Shown here piece by piece: positions 4,398 to 32,952 of a stretch of DNA of 64,000 nucleotides. Location of the stretch: positions 1,054,001 to 1,118,000 of the forward strand of contig NZ_FLLS01000002.1 of the NCBI RefSeq assembly GCF_900078545.1, given 5' to 3'. The position numbers and the translations under genes were made by a program. The notes under the pieces were generated by a model. That model saw only the letters and a list, made by a program, of their open reading frames with translations. It did no database searches and was not told the DNA's origin. This stretch comes from Olegusella massiliensis. GTDB lineage: Bacteria; Actinomycetota; Coriobacteriia; Coriobacteriales; Atopobiaceae. The stretch's first letter is position 1, and the number at the start of each line of letters is the position of its first letter.

Positions 4398-4469
4398 CGC
4401 AAGAACCTTTGAGGTTTTTGCATCCTCCCGCGGGGGAGACGGGAGTGGACGCGGACAGAAAGGGGCCTC

Positions 4470-5411
4470 ATGAACAACCTCCTGCGTCTTATTGGTAGAC
4501 GTCTTATTGCATTTCCCATAATGATTATTGGTGTGTCATTCCTCGTGTTTTTCCTTATGTCATTCTCGCCGGTAGATGAGGCATATGCGGCCCTGGGAGA
4601 GAGTGCCACCATAGAACAGGTGCAGGCATACCACAAGCAGTATGGACTTGATGATCCGTTGCCAGTACGTTATGGCCGCTACATGAACAATTTTTTCCAT
4701 GGCGACTTGGGCACATATGGTGTCAATAGGGCGTCGGTTGCTGATCGTATTGCCTTGGCTTTGCCCGTTACTTTGCAGCTTACGTTTATTGGTTTGCTTA
4801 TTGGCGCAATTGTCTCGTTCATCCTAGGTGTGATTGCAGCGCTCTACAGAGATAAGTGGCCTGATCAACTGTTGCGCGTTTTTTCGATTGCAGCATTGGC
4901 TACACCCTCGTTTTGGTTGGGCGTTATGCTTATTTTGATGTTCCTCGGCAAGCTACCTGTTTCTGGTCCCTTGCCACCTTTTGGTACGGCGGGCTATTGG
5001 GGGCGCATGTTGCTTCCTGCTATTGCACTAGCAACCCCGCTTACTGGTCAGATGATTCGTATTGTGCGTACTTCTATGGTTGAGGAGCTTGATCGCGATT
5101 ACGTGCGTACTGCACGCGCGGCAGGTATTCCCTATGCCACCATCGTTAGTCGCAATGTTTTGCGCAATGCTTTGATTACTCCAGTTACTACCTTGGGTAT
5201 GAAGATTGGTTATCTCATGGGTGGTGCTGTTGTTATTGAGGTTGTATTCAACCTGCCGGGAATGGGCATGACACTACTCGCAGGTGTTCAGGGAAACATT
5301 CCTACGCTGGTACAAGGCGTCACTACCGTGGTCGCTATCGCCTTTATCGTTATCAACATTGTGGTTGATATGCTCTACCTGCTAATCAACCCGCGCATTA
5401 GGTCGGTGTAG
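4470..5411 (+). CDS. satB: SatB-like ABC permease (DppB type)
   Basis: A 313-residue inner-membrane permease with about six hydrophobic segments, of the DppB/OppB class. The cytoplasmic coupling loop is visible near residues 205-235 (VRTSMVEELDRDYVRTARAAGIP), the EAA region that touches the ATPase. The N-terminal pattern LLRLIGRRLIAFPIMIIGVSFLVFFL is typical of this class. The start follows AAAGGGG. Two bases separate its stop from satC, consistent with translational coupling. It pairs with the permease half of SatC to form the channel. The family is certain; sialate specificity comes from context. Confidence 0.85.
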   Translation: MNNLLRLIGRRLIAFPIMIIGVSFLVFFLMSFSPVDEAYAALGESATIEQVQAYHKQYGLDDPLPVRYGRYMNNFFHGDLGTYGVNRASVADRIALALPVTLQLTFIGLLIGAIVSFILGVIAALYRDKWPDQLLRVFSIAALATPSFWLGVMLILMFLGKLPVSGPLPPFGTAGYWGRMLLPAIALATPLTGQMIRIVRTSMVEELDRDYVRTARAAGIPYATIVSRNVLRNALITPVTTLGMKIGYLMGGAVVIEVVFNLPGMGMTLLAGVQGNIPTLVQGVTTVVAIAFIVINIVVDMLYLLINPRIRSV

Positions 5412-10244: not shown

Positions 10245-10293
10245 ACTTAAATACGTAAAGAAGAAGTACTTCCAACATGGGAAAGGAAAAACA

Positions 10294-11214
10294 ATGTCGG
10301 ATTTCAAAATTCGTGGCGTTATACCTCCTGTAGTTGTTCCCGATACCGACGACCGTCAGCTTGATGTTGAGTCTTTCGAGCGTAGTATCAATCGCATGAT
10401 TGATGCTGGTGTCGATGGCTTGTTCTTCTTGGGCTCATCAGGCGAGGCGGCTCTTGCTACTGATGAGCGCCGCGATGAAATTGCGCGTGAAGCTATGCGT
10501 ATTGTCAACCATCGTGTTCCTGTTTTGCTTGGCATTATTGATACCGAGACCGAGCGCGTAATCGACCAAGGCAAGCGTGCACAAAAGCTGGGCGTAGATG
10601 CTCTCGTGGCGACAGCGCCGTTTTATGCCTTGGGTGGGCAAGCTGAAAATGAGGCACATTTCCGCATCTTGCATGAAGCGCTTGAGTTGCCGATTTTTGC
10701 TTATGACATCCCCGTGTGCGTACACACCAAGCTTGACTGGAAGATGCTTATTCGCTTGGGTGAGGATGGTGTGCTTGCTGGCGTCAAGGACTCCTCTGGC
10801 GATGACATTTCCTTCCGCTATCTCTGCCAAGAAAATGAGAAGGTGGGACACCCCCTGTCTCTGTTGACAGGTCATGAAATCGTAGTTGATGGCGCTTATC
10901 TTTCTGGTGCTGATGGCTCGGTGCCCGGCCTTGCTAACGTAGAGCCTTCGGGCTACGTCCGTATGTGGAAAGCAGCTGAGGCAGGAGATTGGTCAACAGC
11001 TAAGGCAGAGCAGGACAGGCTAAACGAAATTAGCCACATTTTTGATGTCACTTCAGGTGTGCAGGGCTTTGCGGCAGGCGTTGGCGCTTTTAAGACTGCG
11101 CTGCAGCTCATGGGTATTTTTGCGACCAATCAAATGCTTCGTCCCGTCAAGCGGCTTGAGGGTGCCAATGTTGAGGCTATTCGTACGGTACTGGTGAATA
11201 ACGGCCTGCTCTAA
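10294..11214 (+). CDS. nanA: N-acetylneuraminate lyase
   Basis: A 306-residue class I aldolase of the DHDPS/NAL family. Tyr137 (FAYDIP) and the Schiff-base Lys165 (AGVKDSSG) fall at the same numbers as the E. coli NanA catalytic residues. The substrate loop reads GSSGE (47-51), close to the GSTGE of lyases rather than the GTTGE of dihydrodipicolinate synthase. It would cleave N-acetylneuraminate to N-acetylmannosamine and pyruvate in the cytosol. Followed by a ROK kinase and NanE, the pathway order is clear. The alternative, a DapA-like enzyme, is less likely given the neighbours. Confidence 0.88.
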   Translation: MSDFKIRGVIPPVVVPDTDDRQLDVESFERSINRMIDAGVDGLFFLGSSGEAALATDERRDEIAREAMRIVNHRVPVLLGIIDTETERVIDQGKRAQKLGVDALVATAPFYALGGQAENEAHFRILHEALELPIFAYDIPVCVHTKLDWKMLIRLGEDGVLAGVKDSSGDDISFRYLCQENEKVGHPLSLLTGHEIVVDGAYLSGADGSVPGLANVEPSGYVRMWKAAEAGDWSTAKAEQDRLNEISHIFDVTSGVQGFAAGVGAFKTALQLMGIFATNQMLRPVKRLEGANVEAIRTVLVNNGLL

Positions 11215-11226
11215 GGAGGTTGACAT

Positions 11227-12201
11227 ATGGCAAAAGAGACTGCAGTTGTAGGCGTTGATATTGGCGGTACCAAGATTGCGTGTGGGATTGTACTGCTAAG
11301 TGAGGACTCAGTTCGTGTTGAGGCAGTCGAAAAAGTTCCCACTGAGGCCAAATGCGGTGGCAAACACGTTTTGGCTACCGTTATCGAGCAGGTCAAAGCT
11401 GCTCAAGCGCGGGCTCGTGAGCTGGGCGTCACGCCTGTTGGTGTGGGTATTTCCAGTGCTGGCGTGGTTAATCCTCGCAACGGTGACATTACCTTTGCAA
11501 ATGATCTTATGCCTGGGTGGGGTGGTACGCATCTAGGAGCAGAAGTGAGTGCTCGCTCAGGTCTGCCTTGCCGCGTCTTGAATGATGTCCATGCCCATGC
11601 TTTAGGTGAGGCGCGTCGCGGTGGTGGGCGTGGAATGTCGAGCTGTCTGGTGGTAGCCGTTGGCACTGGTATTGGTGGTGCCTATGTCGAGCGCGGCACC
11701 ATCATGCTTGGCGCTCACGATGAAGCAGGGCACATCGGGCATGTCGCCTGTATTGCAGCCGCGGGTGTTCCTTGTTCTTGTGGAGCAACGGGTCATCTTG
11801 AGCCTATTGCTGCAGGTCCGGGCATTATCGAGGAATTTGTTCGTCTTGGTGGCAGTCATACTCAGGCAAATGGCAGTCCCATGGATGGTGCTGAAATTGA
11901 CCGGCTGGCTGCTGAAGGAGATAGTGCTGCTAAGAGAGCAGAAGAGCGCGCTGGCAGGGCTTTAGGTGAGGTGCTTGGCAGCATGTGCAATATGCTTGAC
12001 CCCGCCTGCGTCATATTGTCTGGTTCGGTAGCACAGTGTGGCCCCGACTGGTCTGATGCCATGCATCAGGCATTTCTGGGACAAGCAATGCCACCTGTCC
12101 AAAAGACAGCGATTGTCAGTGGCGAGCTTGGGGGAGAGGCTCCGATTATCGGTGCGGCAGAAAACTTCTTGCACTCAGGCTATGCAGAGATTAGTGAGTA
12201 G
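11227..12201 (+). CDS. nanK: ROK-family kinase, probable N-acetylmannosamine kinase
   Basis: A 324-residue ROK sugar kinase. The N-terminal phosphate loop reads GVDIGGTKI. The ROK zinc and substrate motif GHIGH, then CSCGATGHLE, is seen near residues 166-200. It has no helix-turn-helix, so it is a kinase rather than a repressor. Expected reaction: ATP-dependent 6-phosphorylation of N-acetylmannosamine from NanA. Glucokinase activity cannot be ruled out by sequence alone. AAGGAGG lies just before the ATG. The spacing of 12 bases to nanA and 11 to nanE supports one transcript. Confidence 0.83.
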   Translation: MAKETAVVGVDIGGTKIACGIVLLSEDSVRVEAVEKVPTEAKCGGKHVLATVIEQVKAAQARARELGVTPVGVGISSAGVVNPRNGDITFANDLMPGWGGTHLGAEVSARSGLPCRVLNDVHAHALGEARRGGGRGMSSCLVVAVGTGIGGAYVERGTIMLGAHDEAGHIGHVACIAAAGVPCSCGATGHLEPIAAGPGIIEEFVRLGGSHTQANGSPMDGAEIDRLAAEGDSAAKRAEERAGRALGEVLGSMCNMLDPACVILSGSVAQCGPDWSDAMHQAFLGQAMPPVQKTAIVSGELGGEAPIIGAAENFLHSGYAEISE

Positions 12202-12212
12202 GAGGAAGCTTC

Positions 12213-12902
12213 ATGGCAGTGCCACAGCTCATCCAAAATCTGAAAGGCAAGCTCATTGTGAGCGTTCAGGCTTATCCTGGCGAGCCCTTGCGACATCCCG
12301 AAACTATGGCTCAGATGGCGCGCGCCTGTGAGCTCGGAGGAGCTGCAGCTATTCGCTGTCAGGGATTGTCTGATATTGCTGCCATCAAGGGTCGAGTGGA
12401 TGTTCCCGTTATTGGTCTTTGGAAAGAAGGCCATGAGGGTGTCTATATCACGCCAACCCTGCGCCATGCTATCGCTTGCGTCAATGCAGGTGCCGACATA
12501 GTTGCAATCGATGCGACGGATCGTCCTCGCCCTGATGGCCGAAGCTTTGAACAGACCGTTGTTGATTTGCGCGCGCAGTGCGAGACACTGGTGATGGCTG
12601 ACTGCATGACAATTGAAGATATTCGACATGCGGTTGCTGTTGGTTGTGACGTGATTTCGACAACCCTTTCGCATAACAAAGCTGCCATCAATACCACGAT
12701 GTCAGAAGGTCCTGATTTGCCAATTTTGCGTCAAGCGGTTGAAGAATTCCCTAGCATACCTGTGATTTGTGAGGGGCATGTACATACACCAGCCGATGCT
12801 GCTGCTGCTATGAGTGCAGGAGCTTGGGCGGTTGTGGTGGGTACGGGCATTACTCATCCCACCTCTCTTACCAAGTGGTTTTGCGCGGCAATTGATGAAT
12901 AG
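12213..12902 (+). CDS. nanE: N-acetylmannosamine-6-phosphate 2-epimerase
   Basis: A 229-residue TIM-barrel of the NanE family. Visible signatures are KGKLIVSVQ at the N-terminus, a VPVIGLWK strand, DATDRPRPDG in the middle and a phosphate-binding GAWAVVVGTGITHP near the C-terminus. It converts ManNAc-6-P to GlcNAc-6-P in the cytosol. Length is normal. AGGAGG precedes the ATG. The product requires NagA (not in this window) before NagB. Confidence 0.92.
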   Translation: MAVPQLIQNLKGKLIVSVQAYPGEPLRHPETMAQMARACELGGAAAIRCQGLSDIAAIKGRVDVPVIGLWKEGHEGVYITPTLRHAIACVNAGADIVAIDATDRPRPDGRSFEQTVVDLRAQCETLVMADCMTIEDIRHAVAVGCDVISTTLSHNKAAINTTMSEGPDLPILRQAVEEFPSIPVICEGHVHTPADAAAAMSAGAWAVVVGTGITHPTSLTKWFCAAIDE

Positions 12903-12990
12903 GGTGCAATCCAGTATTGTTGCGAAAGCTGTGGGTGGACGAGTGTTTTGTTCGGCTTAAAAATTGTGTTTTTGCGAAAGGAGATGCCAT

Positions 12991-13719
12991 ATGCGCATCA
13001 TCGAGGCAAGAGATTATGAGGATATGAGCCGCAAGGCTGCAGCCATTATGGGTGCACAGGTTTTGCTCAAGCCCAACTGCGCTTTGGGTTTGGCTACAGG
13101 TACCACTCCTATTGGTGCATACAATCAGCTTATTGATTGGTACAAGCAAGGTTATTTGGATTTCTCTCGGGTGAGCACGTACAACCTTGATGAGTATCGT
13201 GGCTTGTCTCACGATGACCCTCAAAGCTACCACTATTTTATGTACGAGCATCTCTTCTCACATATCAATATTGATATTGAGGCCACTCATGTGCCCGACG
13301 GCTCCAATCCCAATGCCGAAGAGGCATGCTCAGGCTATGATGCGCTGGTTGAAGCTGCTGGATATGTCGATCTTCAACTACTAGGCATTGGCAATAACGG
13401 CCATATTGGCTTTAATGAGCCCGCCTCCGCCTTTGCTGCTGGTACCCAATGCGTAGATCTTACTGAGTCAACCATTGAGGCAAATAGCCGTCTTTTTGAT
13501 CATATCGAAGACGTGCCTCGCCAGGCATATACCATGGGTATTGGTACCATCATGCATGCTCGCCGTGTTCTGTTGATTGCAAGCGGCCCCAAGAAGGCTC
13601 AGGCAATCTATGATACTGTTCGTGGCCCTGTGACGCCTGAAGTGCCCGCTTCTGTTTTACAGCTGCACCCTGACTGCACGATTGTTGCTGATAGTGAAGC
13701 GCTGGCTTTGCTTACGTAA
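12991..13719 (+). CDS. nagB: Glucosamine-6-phosphate deaminase
   Basis: A 242-residue NagB. The motifs LGLATGTTP, STYNLDEYRGL (with the catalytic Asp) and GIGNNGHIGFNEP are all present, and length fits the short Gram-positive form without the allosteric tail. It turns GlcN-6-P into Fru-6-P and ammonia, the last step of sialate use. The start is the ATG at 12991 behind AAAGGAGA; a longer in-frame start at 12964 overlaps that site. It ends the operon at a terminator. The absence of nagA beside it is notable. Confidence 0.93.
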   Translation: MRIIEARDYEDMSRKAAAIMGAQVLLKPNCALGLATGTTPIGAYNQLIDWYKQGYLDFSRVSTYNLDEYRGLSHDDPQSYHYFMYEHLFSHINIDIEATHVPDGSNPNAEEACSGYDALVEAAGYVDLQLLGIGNNGHIGFNEPASAFAAGTQCVDLTESTIEANSRLFDHIEDVPRQAYTMGIGTIMHARRVLLIASGPKKAQAIYDTVRGPVTPEVPASVLQLHPDCTIVADSEALALLT

Positions 13720-21018: not shown

Positions 21019-21212
21019 CGTGCAATAGCTACGCAGGTCATTGCACTCAACTCACATGTTGTTAATAGCCGCACTCTTCAGTAGAAAGGGACGCTTCCGG
21101 GATTTGTATGGGAGATACATAAGCAATTTAGCTATGCGTACTTTCTATATATCGTCTTTTGCTGATGCTGGTAGAATTATGCAGAATATGGCACTTTTGG
21201 AAGAAGGAATGC

Positions 21213-23060
21213 ATGTGCGGTATTGTTGGCTTTACCGGCAAAAATCAAGCACAGCAGTTTTTGCTTGATGGTCTGCAGGCCTTAGAATATCGAGGCTACG
21301 ACTCCGCTGGCCTGTCTATTTTGTCTTCTGATGGCGAGCTGCATGCGGTGAAATGTTCCGGCCGTGTAGCAACTCTTGCTGAACGCTGCCAAACAGCAAA
21401 TTTGGTAGGTACCCAAGGCATTGCTCATACGCGGTGGGCGACACATGGCGCACCGACCGATCGTAATGCGCATCCTCATACTGATTGTACGGGGCGCATT
21501 GCCATTGTGCACAACGGCATCATCGAAAACTATCTCAGTTTGCGCAGCTATCTGATGCAGCATGGCCATGAAATCAAGAGCGAGACGGACTCTGAAGTAG
21601 TGGCGCATTTAGTGGAAGATGCGTGGAATGGACCCGCACGTGGCAATTTGCTTGCCGCGGTTCGCAATGCGGTATCGCGCCTTGAGGGCTCATGGGCGCT
21701 TGCAGTTGAGTGTGCCGATGTGCCAGGTGAGCTCGTTGTAGCACGCAAGGGTTCGCCGCTGGTAGTTGCGTCGACACCTGAAGGTGCCTATGCTGCTTCT
21801 GACGTTATGCCACTTGCAGGCGTTGCTTCTGAAGTTATCAATCTTGAAGATGGTCAGTTTGCTCGCCTTTGCGCTAATGGCAACGTTGAGGTGTTTGAGG
21901 CAGACGGCACACCTTGCGCATATCCTCAGACTCTGCAGGTTGATTGGGATGCTTCTGCAGCAACACTGGGAGGCTACCCTGACTTTATGGCAAAAGAAAT
22001 TGCCGAGCAGCCCGAGGCGCTGGAGCGCTTGCTCGCGGGTCGTTTGGGCAAGCATGGCATTGAGCTGGACGAGCTTTCCATGACAAAAGAAGAACTCGCG
22101 GCAATCGATCGCGTATATTTGGTTGCGTGCGGAACTTCTTACCACGTCTGTCTTATTGCCCGTGAGCTGATTGAGCGCTGGGCGCATATTCCTACGTTTT
22201 GTGAATATGCTTCCGAACTTAACTACAAAGATCCACTGGTTACCGACCATACGCTTTGCGTTATTGTGACCCAGTCGGGCGAAACGGCAGATACGCTGAC
22301 TGCAGCTCGTCGTATGAAAGCTTTGGGCTGTAAGGTCTTTGCAATTACCAACGTGCTCGGCTCAACTGCTGCGCGAGAGTCCGACGGCACAATGTATGTG
22401 CAAGCAGGACCTGAGGTTTGTGTTGCATCGACCAAAGCTTATACGGCACAGATGGTTGCTGCATGTCTCTTGACGCTGCGACTTGCCTTTGCCAAGGGCG
22501 CCATGACCACAGAAGAAATTTCTCGACGCTATCATGATCTTGAGGCACTGCCCAATCTCATCCGTGAGGTTTTGAAGCGCAGCTGGCAAGACAAGCGCGT
22601 GGCACAGGTTTTTCGCAAGGCGCATTCAGCACTATTTTTGGGTCGTGGCGTCAATGCAACGACAGCATTTGAAGGTGCTCTCAAGCTCAAGGAAATTAGC
22701 TATTTGCACGCTGAGGCCTATCCTGCTGGAGAGATGAAGCACGGTCCGATTGCTCTGCTTGAGCCAGGCTTTCCCGTGGTTGCAATTGTGCCAGCAGACC
22801 ATGTGCATGATAAGACGGTTTCGAACATTCAGGAAGTTCATGCTCGCGGTGCACACTGTATCGCAGTGGCCACCGATGGTGATGTTGATGTAGCACGTCA
22901 ATGTGAGCATACTCTTTGGATTCCGCCTGTTCCCGAAGAAGAATTGGTGCCTATTGTGGCCATCGTGCACTTGCAGATGCTTGCACGTTTTGTTGCGATG
23001 GAACGCGGTTGTGATGTGGATAAACCTCGTAACCTCGCAAAGTCTGTGACAGTGGAGTAG
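21213..23060 (+). CDS. glmS: Glutamine-fructose-6-phosphate aminotransferase (isomerizing)
   Basis: A 615-residue GlmS with Cys2 as glutaminase nucleophile (MCGIVGF), so the start must be the ATG at 21213; a longer in-frame start upstream would bury this cysteine. GYDSAG, HTRWATHG and HNGIIENY mark the amidotransferase domain. CGTSYH, SQSGETADT (as TQSGETADT) and the C-terminal KSVTVE tail mark the SIS domains. It makes GlcN-6-P from Fru-6-P and glutamine for the cell wall. No glmS ribozyme-like leader is evident. It is followed by acpS with four bases between. Confidence 0.96.
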   Translation: MCGIVGFTGKNQAQQFLLDGLQALEYRGYDSAGLSILSSDGELHAVKCSGRVATLAERCQTANLVGTQGIAHTRWATHGAPTDRNAHPHTDCTGRIAIVHNGIIENYLSLRSYLMQHGHEIKSETDSEVVAHLVEDAWNGPARGNLLAAVRNAVSRLEGSWALAVECADVPGELVVARKGSPLVVASTPEGAYAASDVMPLAGVASEVINLEDGQFARLCANGNVEVFEADGTPCAYPQTLQVDWDASAATLGGYPDFMAKEIAEQPEALERLLAGRLGKHGIELDELSMTKEELAAIDRVYLVACGTSYHVCLIARELIERWAHIPTFCEYASELNYKDPLVTDHTLCVIVTQSGETADTLTAARRMKALGCKVFAITNVLGSTAARESDGTMYVQAGPEVCVASTKAYTAQMVAACLLTLRLAFAKGAMTTEEISRRYHDLEALPNLIREVLKRSWQDKRVAQVFRKAHSALFLGRGVNATTAFEGALKLKEISYLHAEAYPAGEMKHGPIALLEPGFPVVAIVPADHVHDKTVSNIQEVHARGAHCIAVATDGDVDVARQCEHTLWIPPVPEEELVPIVAIVHLQMLARFVAMERGCDVDKPRNLAKSVTVE

Positions 23061-27925: not shown

Positions 27926-30415
27926 ATGAATGGCACTAACGATATGAATGCAAAGCAGGCCGAGCAGAACGTTCAGTTGGGGAAGCTGGTGCTTGCTCTT
28001 GATACCTCTACGGATATGCTGGCATGTGCAGTGGGTCGTATACAAGGCTCACAGGTTGAGCTACTCGCCTCTTCCGATCACCTATGTCGTCGCAAAGCCA
28101 ATGTTGAGCTTGTGACAAGCTGTGAAGAAACGCTTGCACAAGCAGAACTTTCCATGGAAGACTTGGATGCAGTGCTCGTTGGCCGTGGTCCCGGCTCTTT
28201 TACTGGTGTCCGCATTGGCATTGCTACAGGTAAAGGTATTGCTTGTGGAGCAAACCTACCTCTGTATGGCGCATCTGCCTTGGATTCTGTCGCTTGGTCG
28301 ATGTGGAAGCAGGGCACGCGCGGCAAAATAGCTGTGGCGGCTGATGCCATGCGCGGTGAAGTGTATCCGGGTATTTATGTGCTTGATGAGGCTGGTGCAC
28401 ATCGCACATTTGAAACCGAAACGGTGATGAAAGCGGCTGCCTGCGCGCAGGCGTGGGGCGCCCGTAAAGACCGAGATGAGTTACTGGTGGTTGGCGGTGG
28501 CCTTGTGAAACACCGTGCTGCCTTTGAATTAGCTGGCATGACGCATTTTGCCGCAGAGCAAAACTGGCTACCCACAGGCGAAGGCTTGCTTATGGCAGCT
28601 GCATCTGCTGATGGACGCAGTCGAGCAGGAAACGGAGATCCCGCACTCGTACTCCCTGTTTATACCCGCTTATCTGATGCGGAGGAAAGCGAGCGCCAGC
28701 GCTTGGGCCTTACTCTTCCCGCCTCGGTAAAGCTTACGGGAGTCGATGATGCACTTGCGTCCATTCATCTACAGCTTCGTCCCATGTCAGTTAACGATCT
28801 TGATGCGGTAGTTCGGCTTGAGCAAGATGTTTTCCAAGGTGCAGCCCATACGCCCTGGACGCGTGCAATGTTTTTTGAAGAGCTCTCCCAGCCCAGTCGT
28901 AGTTGGTGGGTAGCTCACGATCGCGGTCAGGTGATTGGTTTTGCAGGTGGTATGCTTGCGGGAGATGATCTTGAGCTACTAGATGTTGTAGTAGAGCAGA
29001 GCCGTCGTAGGCAAGGCATTGCAACACGTTTGATTTCTCGCGTGGCCTACGATGGACAAATGCTTGGTGCTCACTATCTATCCCTTGAGGTCGACTCCAA
29101 GAACACTGCAGGTCAGGCTACCTATGCGGCGCTCGGTATGAGTGAGGAAGGTAGGCGTTCTGCTTACTATGGCAAAGGTCACGATGCGTTGATTTTGCGT
29201 GCTGCTCTGCCGCTAGCTCTAGATGAGAAGCTTGTTGGTACTCGTCCCGAGCCCAAGCCGTCCCTACGTGAATGGCCAGTTCATGTTGCTTCACGCGCTA
29301 CAGAGGCTCAGGCGCGCATCAAAGCGGCAGCTCCGCTTATCTTGTCTATTGAGTCTTCCTGTGATGAGACTGCTATGGCAATCATCAACGGTAAAGGCGA
29401 AATTCTCGCCAATGTTGTGGCAACTCAAATTGACTTCCATGCTCGTTTTGGCGGGGTTGTCCCCGAGATTGCCAGTCGCAAACATACCGAGGCAATTGTA
29501 GGTGTCTACGAAGAAACGCTCGCGCAAGCAGGTGCATTGCTGGGCGTTGGAACGCTGCTACCCTCAGACCTTACGGCTGTCGGCGTTACTGCGGGTCCTG
29601 GACTTGTTGGGGCGCTTGTCGTGGGCGTCGCTTTTGCAAAGGGTCTGTGCATTGGCGCTCATGTGCCCTTGCTGGCGGCACATCATCTCGAAGGCCATCT
29701 TTTTGCTAACCTCTTTGAGACGCCTGATCTTCAGCCACCTTTTGTGGCCAGCTTGGTTTCTGGTGGCAATACCATGTTGGTACATGTGCGCGATTGGGGA
29801 GATTACGAGATTTTAGGTACCACCATTGATGATGCGGTGGGTGAAGCATTTGACAAGGTGGCAAAAGCACTCGGTCTTGGTTATCCCGGTGGTCCTGTGA
29901 TTTCGCGCCTGTCTGCCCAGGGCAACCCCAAGGCGATTCACTTCCCCCGTGCGATGATGCATAGCCATGATTTCCGCTTCTCTCTTTCGGGGCTTAAAAC
30001 CTCTGTCATTACCTATATCGAAGGTGAAAATAAGGCTGGTCGTCCTGTCAACTTGCCAGATCTTGCTGCAAGTTTTGAAGCAGCGGTTATTGATGTGCAA
30101 GTTGCAAAAGCAACAGAAGCAGTGCGTCAGACGGGTGTCAAAGAGTTCTGTGTTGGTGGCGGTGTTGCTGCAAATCCTGGACTGCGCGCGGCTTACAAAA
30201 AAGCCTTTGGCAAGATGGGAGTTCGTGTCACCGTGCCACCAATGGTGGTTTGCGGTGATAACGGCGCTATGATTGCGGCTGTTGCGCTGCGCAATTGGCG
30301 TGCAGGCCTGATGGCTCCTCTTACTTTGGACGCAGATCCAAATGCAAAGATTGATGCATGGACAAGCCCAGAGCCTCCAGTTATTGCGAGCACTTGGCCT
30401 CCGCGCAACAAATGA
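27926..30415 (+). CDS. tsaB-rimI-tsaD: TsaB-RimI-TsaD triple fusion
   Basis: One 829-residue chain joining three enzymes usually made separately. Residues about 20-265 are TsaB (LALDTSTD, GRGPGSFTGVRIG). Residues 280-430 are a GNAT acetyltransferase like RimI (LDVVVEQSRRRQGIATRL, the acetyl-CoA loop). Residues 465-829 are TsaD (SIESSCDETA, HHLEGH metal ligands, SLVSGGNT, GDNGAMIA). With TsaE upstream it makes t6A37 in tRNA; RimI acetylates the N-terminus of ribosomal protein S18. Fusing TsaB to TsaD fixes their dimer in one chain. The ATG at 27926 has only a weak ribosome site, and 27944 is an alternative. Confidence 0.92.
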   Translation: MNGTNDMNAKQAEQNVQLGKLVLALDTSTDMLACAVGRIQGSQVELLASSDHLCRRKANVELVTSCEETLAQAELSMEDLDAVLVGRGPGSFTGVRIGIATGKGIACGANLPLYGASALDSVAWSMWKQGTRGKIAVAADAMRGEVYPGIYVLDEAGAHRTFETETVMKAAACAQAWGARKDRDELLVVGGGLVKHRAAFELAGMTHFAAEQNWLPTGEGLLMAAASADGRSRAGNGDPALVLPVYTRLSDAEESERQRLGLTLPASVKLTGVDDALASIHLQLRPMSVNDLDAVVRLEQDVFQGAAHTPWTRAMFFEELSQPSRSWWVAHDRGQVIGFAGGMLAGDDLELLDVVVEQSRRRQGIATRLISRVAYDGQMLGAHYLSLEVDSKNTAGQATYAALGMSEEGRRSAYYGKGHDALILRAALPLALDEKLVGTRPEPKPSLREWPVHVASRATEAQARIKAAAPLILSIESSCDETAMAIINGKGEILANVVATQIDFHARFGGVVPEIASRKHTEAIVGVYEETLAQAGALLGVGTLLPSDLTAVGVTAGPGLVGALVVGVAFAKGLCIGAHVPLLAAHHLEGHLFANLFETPDLQPPFVASLVSGGNTMLVHVRDWGDYEILGTTIDDAVGEAFDKVAKALGLGYPGGPVISRLSAQGNPKAIHFPRAMMHSHDFRFSLSGLKTSVITYIEGENKAGRPVNLPDLAASFEAAVIDVQVAKATEAVRQTGVKEFCVGGGVAANPGLRAAYKKAFGKMGVRVTVPPMVVCGDNGAMIAAVALRNWRAGLMAPLTLDADPNAKIDAWTSPEPPVIASTWPPRNK

Positions 30416-30821: not shown

Positions 30822-31817
30822 ATGCCAACAACCGCGATTGTACTCGCCGCTGGCGAGGGAACGCGAATGAAGTCTGCCCATTCCAAAGTTGCCCACAAGC
30901 TCCTCGACAGACCCCTGGTCTGGTGGTCTGTGCGTGTGGCGCGTCAAGCTGGAGCTGATCGCATCGTGGTCGTTGTGGGAAGTCACAGCCAAGAAGTACG
31001 CGATTGTCTCGATGGTGAAGATGTGATTTTTGTCGAGCAAGCAGAACGTCTCGGCACTGGTCACGCTGTCCGCTGTGTACGTGATGCGCTTGGTAGCTTT
31101 GATGGTCCGGTCGTAGTTTTATCTGGTGATTCTCCGCTGTTGCGCACTGAAACCATCGTTTCTCTTATTGAACGCACAAAATCGGAGCATAACGCTTGTA
31201 CGGTACTTACGATGACGCCTCCTGACCCTACGGGGTATGGACGTATTGTCTTTGATGAGACTGGCAAAGTTCAGGCAATTATTGAGCATAAAGATTGCAC
31301 CCCTGAGCAGCGCCAGAGTTTGTCTGAATGCAACTCAAGCATTTACTGCTTCTGTGGAGGCAGGCTTACGGTCAACATTGACAAAATTGGCAACCATAAT
31401 GTCCAGCATGAGTATTACCTCACAGACATGGTGGGTATTTATGTGGATATGGGTGAGCCCGTTGCCTCTGTGCATGTTGATGATTACGCTGAGCTGCTGG
31501 GCGTGAACAGTCGCGTACAGTTGGCTGAGGCAAATAAAGCCATGCAGTTGCGCATCAACCATGCACTGATGGCCGAAGGTGTTTCGATGCTTGATCCTGC
31601 GCTTGTCTGGGTGGGCCCTGAAGTGAGTATTGGACGTGACACCACTTTGATGCCTCTTACGATGCTCTGGGGTACTACGCAGATTGGCAAAGATTGTCTT
31701 ATTGGTCCTCATACGCGCCTTACAGACGTGCAGGTAGGTGATGGTTATATTCTTGAGGATTTAGTTGCCAAAGAAATTAACATTGAGGATGAACTTGATG
31801 CTGCACAGCCTTCCTAA
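30822..31817 (+). CDS. glmU: GlmU, C-terminally truncated: UDP-GlcNAc pyrophosphorylase domain
   Basis: A 331-residue protein against about 450-460 for standard GlmU. Residues 1-230 are a complete uridyltransferase domain (VLAAGEGTRMKS, RLGTGHAVR, LSGDSPLL, GYGRI, NSSIY). The left-handed beta-helix that carries acetyltransferase activity is cut to a few coils (VWVGPEVSIG, TQIGKDCLIG), and the region with the catalytic His and acetyl-CoA site is missing. After the stop there is no further coding match in any frame, so this is not a simple frameshift. It should still make UDP-GlcNAc from GlcNAc-1-P. GGGAGGG precedes the ATG. Confidence 0.87.
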   Translation: MPTTAIVLAAGEGTRMKSAHSKVAHKLLDRPLVWWSVRVARQAGADRIVVVVGSHSQEVRDCLDGEDVIFVEQAERLGTGHAVRCVRDALGSFDGPVVVLSGDSPLLRTETIVSLIERTKSEHNACTVLTMTPPDPTGYGRIVFDETGKVQAIIEHKDCTPEQRQSLSECNSSIYCFCGGRLTVNIDKIGNHNVQHEYYLTDMVGIYVDMGEPVASVHVDDYAELLGVNSRVQLAEANKAMQLRINHALMAEGVSMLDPALVWVGPEVSIGRDTTLMPLTMLWGTTQIGKDCLIGPHTRLTDVQVGDGYILEDLVAKEINIEDELDAAQPS

Positions 31818-31944
31818 GCACATGTTTTACTTTTAGCTATCCAGGTGTATAGACACCTTGATAAGCAGTTTGTTTGCTGTATTGTTCAAATATTACAAAG
31901 AGTCGTAGTGCCAGCCACGCAGTCCCATCAAGGAGGACAAGTAC

Positions 31945-32952
31945 ATGTACGAAGATCTATGCGCCCCTATGTTTGCAACCAAGGAAATAAAGCTTTTTAC
32001 CTGCAGCGGCAACAAGGAGCTCTCGCAGGAGATTGCCGACATCTTGCACCTTGAGGTTTCTGGTCTCAAGCTCGAAAAGTTTGCCAATGGCGAGATATAT
32101 GCTCGTTTTGATGAGTCTGTTCGTGGTGACGAGGTTTTTCTTATCCAATCTATTGCAGGTAAAAATGTTAATGACCTGCTGTTGGAGCTGCTCATTGCAA
32201 CTGACGCAGCCCATCGCGCATCTGCTGCAAGTGTGACAGCTGTCATTCCTCACTATGCCTATGCTCGTCAGGATCGTAAAGCTGCTTCTCGCGAGCCAAT
32301 TACTGCTCGCCTTGTTGCCAACCTGCTTGAAACCGCGGGCGTTGATCGTGTTATTACTCTTGATTTGCACCAAGGCCAGATTCAGGGGTTTTTTGATATT
32401 CCTGTCACCCACCTTACCGCCCTTGATCTCTTTGGCAAGTACTATGCCGAGATGGGCGAGGAAAAGGGTTGGGATTGGAAAAACGTTGTCGTTGTTTCTC
32501 CTGATGTGGGTCGTGCTAAAGCTGCTAAAAAGCTCTCCGATATGCTGGGCTGCTCGCTTGCTATTGCTCACAAGGGCCGCCCTCGTCACAATGTTTCCGA
32601 GGTCATGGCTATCATTGGTGATATTCAAGGTAAGACCTGCATCATCAACGACGATATGATTGATACCGCAGGTACACTTTGCGGCTCGGTGAGGGAGCTT
32701 AAGAAGAAGGGCGCAGGCGACATTTATGTCTGCGCTACACATGGTGTTTTTTCTGGTCCCGCTATCGAGCGCCTTGAAGATGTGCCTATTGAAGAGTGCT
32801 GCGTTACCAATGCGATTCCTTGCGAGCATGCAAATAAGGAAGGCTCCAAGATCAAGACTGTCTCAGTGGCAAACGAGCTTGCTGAAGCAATTTATAAGGT
32901 ATATACCAACCAGCCGACCTCTACAATTTTTGGTGGCGGCGGCGAGCTATAG
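31945..32952 (+). CDS. prs: Ribose-phosphate pyrophosphokinase
   Basis: A 335-residue PRPP synthetase. YARQDRK (ATP loop), DLHQGQIQGFFDIPV (metal-binding flag region), VVSPDVGRAKAA and the PRPP loop DDMIDTAGT are all present. It makes PRPP for nucleotides, histidine and tryptophan. AAGGAGG lies before the ATG. glmU-prs-pth is a familiar actinobacterial and Gram-positive order. Confidence 0.96.
   Translation: MYEDLCAPMFATKEIKLFTCSGNKELSQEIADILHLEVSGLKLEKFANGEIYARFDESVRGDEVFLIQSIAGKNVNDLLLELLIATDAAHRASAASVTAVIPHYAYARQDRKAASREPITARLVANLLETAGVDRVITLDLHQGQIQGFFDIPVTHLTALDLFGKYYAEMGEEKGWDWKNVVVVSPDVGRAKAAKKLSDMLGCSLAIAHKGRPRHNVSEVMAIIGDIQGKTCIINDDMIDTAGTLCGSVRELKKKGAGDIYVCATHGVFSGPAIERLEDVPIEECCVTNAIPCEHANKEGSKIKTVSVANELAEAIYKVYTNQPTSTIFGGGGEL

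Follow-up and report, generated by a model that had tools for sequence, protein, structure and literature searches.

Loss of the GlmU acetyltransferase domain in Olegusella massiliensis and its probable replacement by a stand-alone archaeal-type beta-helix protein

The one GlmU encoded in the genome of Olegusella massiliensis (G000; 1.8 Mb, two contigs, ~99% complete) has lost its acetylating half, and the pathway to UDP-GlcNAc has very probably been split by non-orthologous domain replacement. In the proposed pathway GlmS would make GlcN-6-P, which GlmM would convert to GlcN-1-P; a separate beta-helix protein of 220 residues would then use acetyl-CoA to form GlcNAc-1-P, and the truncated GlmU would uridylylate this product to UDP-GlcNAc. 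The stand-alone enzyme would derive from an archaeal-type (ST0452-like) lineage that is frequent among Clostridia and would have been acquired horizontally, and its presence would have made the acetyltransferase domain of GlmU redundant, allowing deletion several times independently. Coordinates without a prefix refer to the window, the whole stretch of 64,000 nucleotides that was analysed; those prefixed G000:C2 belong to the same genome but lie outside the window numbering.

Results

Truncation of GlmU

The glmU gene (30822..31817, + strand) encodes 331 residues that comprise a uridyltransferase and a beta-helix stub. The protein matched the GlmU profile TIGR01173 with 319 bits, which is under the whole-GlmU cutoff of 367 bits, and the match covered profile positions 2-312 of 452. 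The top PDB matches were whole GlmUs, aligned to their residues ~14-326 only. The uridyltransferase domain (residues ~1-229; 30822..31508, +) was delimited from the profile match, the PDB alignments and the signature residues LAAGEGTRMKS, K22, Q73, D103, E155, N171 and N229, all of which are present and invariant among the short GlmUs aligned. By correspondence with E. coli GlmU, their roles include the binding of Mg and nucleotide. A single hexapeptide stretch identified by Pfam is all that is left of the beta-helix (residues 268-301; 31623..31724, +), and the C-terminal acetyltransferase with the catalytic Glu/His of a bifunctional GlmU is absent. The conserved 3' neighbour of glmU, prs (ribose-phosphate diphosphokinase; 31945..32952, +), is separated from the stop codon by a non-coding gap of 127 nt (31818..31944, +), in which no acetyltransferase-domain remnant was found in three frames. 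The first-pass annotation had described exactly this protein, with a complete uridyltransferase, a stub of the beta-helix, no catalytic acetyltransferase region and no downstream continuation in any frame, and the description is borne out.

A frameshift or an error of assembly or sequencing was rejected as the cause of the short frame. In the nearest named relative, Atopobium sp. oral taxon 810 (G031; 94% identity), GlmU stops at the identical residue, and nine more genomes of the family contain GlmUs that end at about residues 313-341 with different tails and independent stops, so the truncation is not a sequencing slip. The GlmUs of G033 and G032, from the same genus, contain 462 residues and the domain has therefore been lost.

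Elsewhere in the window, an open reading frame of 829 residues (27926-30415) resembles a fusion of TsaB, a RimI-type GNAT and TsaD, which by resemblance would combine the synthesis of tRNA threonylcarbamoyladenosine with the acetylation of a ribosomal protein. In four related genomes (G064, G065, G067 and G076) long frames alignable with this one were seen.

The stand-alone beta-helix protein

A hexapeptide scan of the genome revealed a stand-alone left-handed beta-helix protein of 220 residues (G000:C2:813803-814462, outside the window), a CysE-like protein, two GlgC/GlgD-like proteins and GlmU itself. As these were the only finds, a detached GlmU C-terminus elsewhere in the genome was rejected. 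The best NCBIfam match of the 220-residue protein was to the acetyltransferase half of TIGR03992 (Arch_glmU, the archaeal bifunctional sugar-1-phosphate nucleotidylyltransferase/acetyltransferase), with 146 bits and beginning at profile position 216. The best PDB sequence match was ST0452 (E 6e-25), ungapped over 164 residues. The protein thus contains the homologous beta-helix acetyltransferase domain, while the N-terminal nucleotidyltransferase is missing from the chain. H119 is the counterpart of His308, the catalytic histidine of ST0452, and in the alignment with S. aureus GlmU the residues opposite E105 and H119 are E348 and H362, which have been named as key catalytic residues. ST0452 acetylates both GlcN-1-P and GalN-1-P and requires His308 for both, according to the summary of Zhang 2015 given in PMC4909775.

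Residues R89, E105, K107, H119, Y122 and N142 were invariant in the 33 sequences compared. In all 33 relatives His133 takes the place of N377 of E. coli GlmU, and the counterpart of K392 is the unconserved residue 148, so the details of substrate binding may differ from those of GlmU. The AlphaFold model of the 220-residue protein had a pLDDT of 96.5, and fold comparison of this model gave ST0452 as the best match (Z 25, 28% identity) and E. coli GlmU with Z 18.6, although a shared predicted fold is by itself no proof of substrate. The earlier reading had held that another enzyme must acetylate GlcN-1-P unless the product came from salvage, and had named the discovery of a separate acetyltransferase gene as the result that would resolve the matter; a stand-alone candidate of the right family has now been found.

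The amino-sugar pathway and the sialate operon

The window contains glmS (21186..23057, +; TIGR01135, 735 bits) for de novo GlcN-6-P, and GlmM (G000:C2:1256967-1258280) and NagA (G000:C2:719647-720687) are encoded outside it. Since GlmS and GlmM are present, de novo synthesis of UDP-GlcNAc would be complete if the stand-alone protein is counted. The sialate operon (10255-13716) consists of a NanA/DapA-family aldolase (10255-11211), a ROK kinase (11224-12198) that precedes nanE, nanE itself (ManNAc-6-P 2-epimerase; 12198..12902, +), which yields GlcNAc-6-P, and as last gene nagB (GlcN-6-P deaminase; 12961..13716, +). The GlcNAc-6-P derived from sialate has an ordinary exit through NagA and NagB, and sialic acid can still contribute to the wall once NagA has converted it, in the usual way, to GlcN-6-P. 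If GlcNAc-6-P were to enter wall synthesis directly, a GlcNAc-phosphate mutase would be required, of which there is no sign here: one GlmM-type mutase, and no second, exceeded the GlmM cutoff among the matches listed. With GlmS, GlmM and NagA all encoded and nagB closing the sialate operon, there is no need for a direct salvage route. The first-pass annotation therefore stands in its proposal of a separate acetylating enzyme, and its suggestion that GlcNAc-6-P salvage could let host sialic acid feed the wall directly is not supported.

Distribution in Atopobiaceae

Comparison of GlmU lengths across the family, a check proposed with the earlier reading, identified a short form in 11 of 140 Atopobiaceae genomes; wherever else the gene could be resolved, the full beta-helix domain is retained. 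The short forms occur in the genus of O. massiliensis (G000, G031, G034), in G123, G128, G134 and G136, and in G064, G065, G067 and G076. They are interleaved with full-length GlmUs in the GlmU trees, where short G134 pairs with full-length G130, short G034 pairs with full-length G033 with modest support (80/90), and the pairs G064/G076 and G065/G067 each sit among full-length relatives. At least five separate losses of the acetyltransferase domain fit these trees, provided that the domain was never regained, and at least three of them fall in lineages that also carry the stand-alone protein.

The stand-alone protein was itself found in 11 of the 140 genomes, which divide into 7 of 11 with a short GlmU versus 4 of 124 with a full one (Fisher p 7e-7, which is no strict probability because the genomes are kin). 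The genomes that do not contain it comprise 4 with short and 120 with full GlmU. The four that carry both forms (G066, G071, G124, G125) have the look that would be expected of an intermediate stage. In G034 glmM is followed by the stand-alone gene and then by glmS, ~12-14 nt apart in each case; in G033, its sister with full GlmU, glmM adjoins glmS, the stand-alone gene is absent and no clear remnant of it was found in the glmM-glmS gap. The order in G134 is glmS, nagB, stand-alone gene, glmM. In O. massiliensis the gene is flanked by serS and a CorC/hemolysin-like gene, away from glmM, which is of the native type and occupies another site.

Two further loci were observed. In G066 (L099; G066:C70, 4152-7736) two types of glmM lie close together, one native and one beside the stand-alone gene, which suggests an acquired cassette. 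In G070 (L168; G070:C90) a decayed remnant of the stand-alone gene lies at ~4420-4590 between nagB and glmM; GlmU was not found in the assembly of this genome.

The stand-alone protein is absent from four of the short-GlmU genomes, all of genus g30, with the loci G064:C74 (L051), G065:C330 (L047), G067:C237 (L045) and G076:C108 (L050); G064 is 99% complete. Hexapeptide and GNAT surveys of the four gave no clear substitute acetyltransferase. The subset of hexapeptide matches that was inspected resembled CysE, MaaA, NeuD, GlgC/D and carbonic anhydrase, the GNAT genes common to all four were not reducible to a single candidate, and the surroundings of glmM, as seen in G064, G065 and G076, were native and held no candidate acetyltransferase. 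A different acetyltransferase or salvage may serve these bacteria, and because of them the association of short GlmU with the stand-alone protein should not be taken as a rule.

Distribution outside the family

Copies of the stand-alone protein are frequent in Clostridia and occur also in Eggerthellaceae. Among 80 Lachnospiraceae genomes (G151, G175-G253), searched for GlmU with one query at a single threshold of E <= 1e-10, a full GlmU was found in 0/80, the uridyltransferase alone in 8/80 and the stand-alone protein in 78/80; about 70 of the 80 gave no convincing match to the GlmU uridyltransferase with this query and threshold. The stand-alone arrangement appears to be standard in this family. 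For genomes without a GlmU match, GlmR, reported as an accessory uridyltransferase in Listeria (PMC10128056), is a candidate for the uridylylating enzyme. A set of 35 carriers of mixed taxonomy divided into 11 with a short uridyltransferase only, 6 with full GlmU and 18 in which a GlmU match was absent. In a scan of bacterial genomes, glmM was present within the fetched flank of the stand-alone gene in 39 of 80 carriers, and in several of those inspected nagB lay between or beside the two genes. In Clostridia a nucleotidyltransferase gene had been expected to separate glmM from the stand-alone gene; the intervening gene proved to be nagB.

In the tree of the stand-alone protein the copies from the genus of O. 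massiliensis (G000, G031, G034) group with Eggerthellaceae (96/96), and the remaining copies from Atopobiaceae cluster apart from these (100/97), close to copies from Mogibacterium, Erysipelotrichaceae and Oscillospiraceae. This topology points to at least two acquisitions of the gene by Atopobiaceae. As the gene is present in G000, G031 and G034 but missing from G033, the sister of G034, a simple reading is that it was gained before the genus arose and that reciprocal loss followed within it. Which way the gene was transferred, and that gain came first and loss afterwards, are inferred. Stand-alone genes were also seen at L197 and L231, in metagenome-assembled genomes labelled Sphaerochaetaceae and Alistipes, where they reflect either wider transfer or binning errors.

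Discussion

A salvage economy, in which GlcN-1-P is not acetylated and GlcNAc-6-P or GlcNAc-1-P comes from sialic acid or GlcNAc, has a precedent in Rickettsia, where GlmU is without the whole acetyltransferase domain and imported GlcNAc-1-P has been proposed as its substrate (PMC5615194). The sialate operon in the window and the four related genomes with short GlmU and no stand-alone protein would agree with such an economy, but it would leave GlmS and GlmM of little use; with both of these and a candidate GlcN-1-P acetyltransferase present, with no second mutase over the GlmM cutoff among those listed and with the operon closing on nagB, a catabolic exit, we regard it as improbable. Still harder to credit is the acetylation of GlcN-6-P by a GNAT of the GNA1 kind, followed by conversion of GlcNAc-6-P to GlcNAc-1-P by GlmM or another mutase. 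The genome does encode five GNAT domains, three of them in proteins without an assigned substrate, yet none was assigned to GNA1 with the general family models used in place of a GNA1-dedicated profile. These GNATs match no named GlcN-6-P acetyltransferase family, their best matches being RimI and resistance-type models below the cutoffs, and nothing GNA1-like could be put forward as the replacement from among them.

Alternatively, the substrate of the stand-alone protein might be a different sugar, for instance GalN-1-P or a precursor of a polysaccharide, and the protein might coincide with short GlmU by chance. His133 and the variable residue 148 are unlike GlmU, the summary available for ST0452 attributes GalN-1-P activity to that enzyme as well, and four genomes keep the protein alongside a full GlmU. 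Against this stand the near-universal presence of the protein in Lachnospiraceae without a single full GlmU in 80 genomes, the clustering of its gene with glmM, glmS and nagB, and the strong association with GlmU truncation, which together make another substrate very unlikely. Replacement of the GlmU domain by the stand-alone protein is the preferred reading. It is also likely, if less firmly so, that in Lachnospiraceae and many other gut Clostridia GlcN-1-P is acetylated mainly by this protein, that it entered Atopobiaceae at least twice and was followed by at least three independent domain deletions, and that sister species have kept either copy.

As an antibacterial target, GlmU is regarded as universal and bifunctional. 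Should entire families of gut bacteria rely on another acetyltransferase, they would escape inhibitors aimed at the acetyltransferase site of GlmU. In that case pathway annotation that looks for a whole GlmU would also misjudge such bacteria as incapable of UDP-GlcNAc synthesis, and Atopobiaceae would provide intermediate states of an essential fused enzyme being split. An inference of pathway loss from a missing GlmU has been made in PMC7725333.

A GlmU that has lost its acetyltransferase domain has already been reported from Rickettsia (PMC5615194) and from Chlorobaculum limnaeum (PMC7725333), and the archaeal bifunctional enzyme is known as well. For a stand-alone archaeal-type acetyltransferase that replaces the GlmU domain in Clostridia, Coriobacteriia or Atopobiaceae, no description was found in the open-access literature. 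For Rickettsia, an intracellular parasite, import of GlcNAc-1-P has been proposed, whereas O. massiliensis possesses the genes for de novo synthesis and a candidate for the replacement enzyme. The 331-residue truncation of E. coli GlmU (PDB 1fwy/1fxj) has the same length as the protein described here, but it was made in the laboratory and the truncation in the window is natural and conserved between species. That E. coli construct is known to keep uridyltransferase activity. In its uridyltransferase and in the conserved order glmU-prs-pth the short protein is a bacterial GlmU (TIGR01173), while the acetyltransferase half is missing and the putative stand-in is of archaeal type, not a detached GlmU C-terminus. 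The 220-residue protein has the beta-helix and the catalytic histidine in common with ST0452 of Sulfolobus tokodaii (TIGR03992; PDB 2ggo, 5z09, 5z0a). ST0452 carries a nucleotidyltransferase domain of its own, with both domains on one chain, whereas the protein of O. massiliensis has just the beta-helix and a short helical segment at its N-terminus, and a bacterial GlmU would supply the uridyltransferase.
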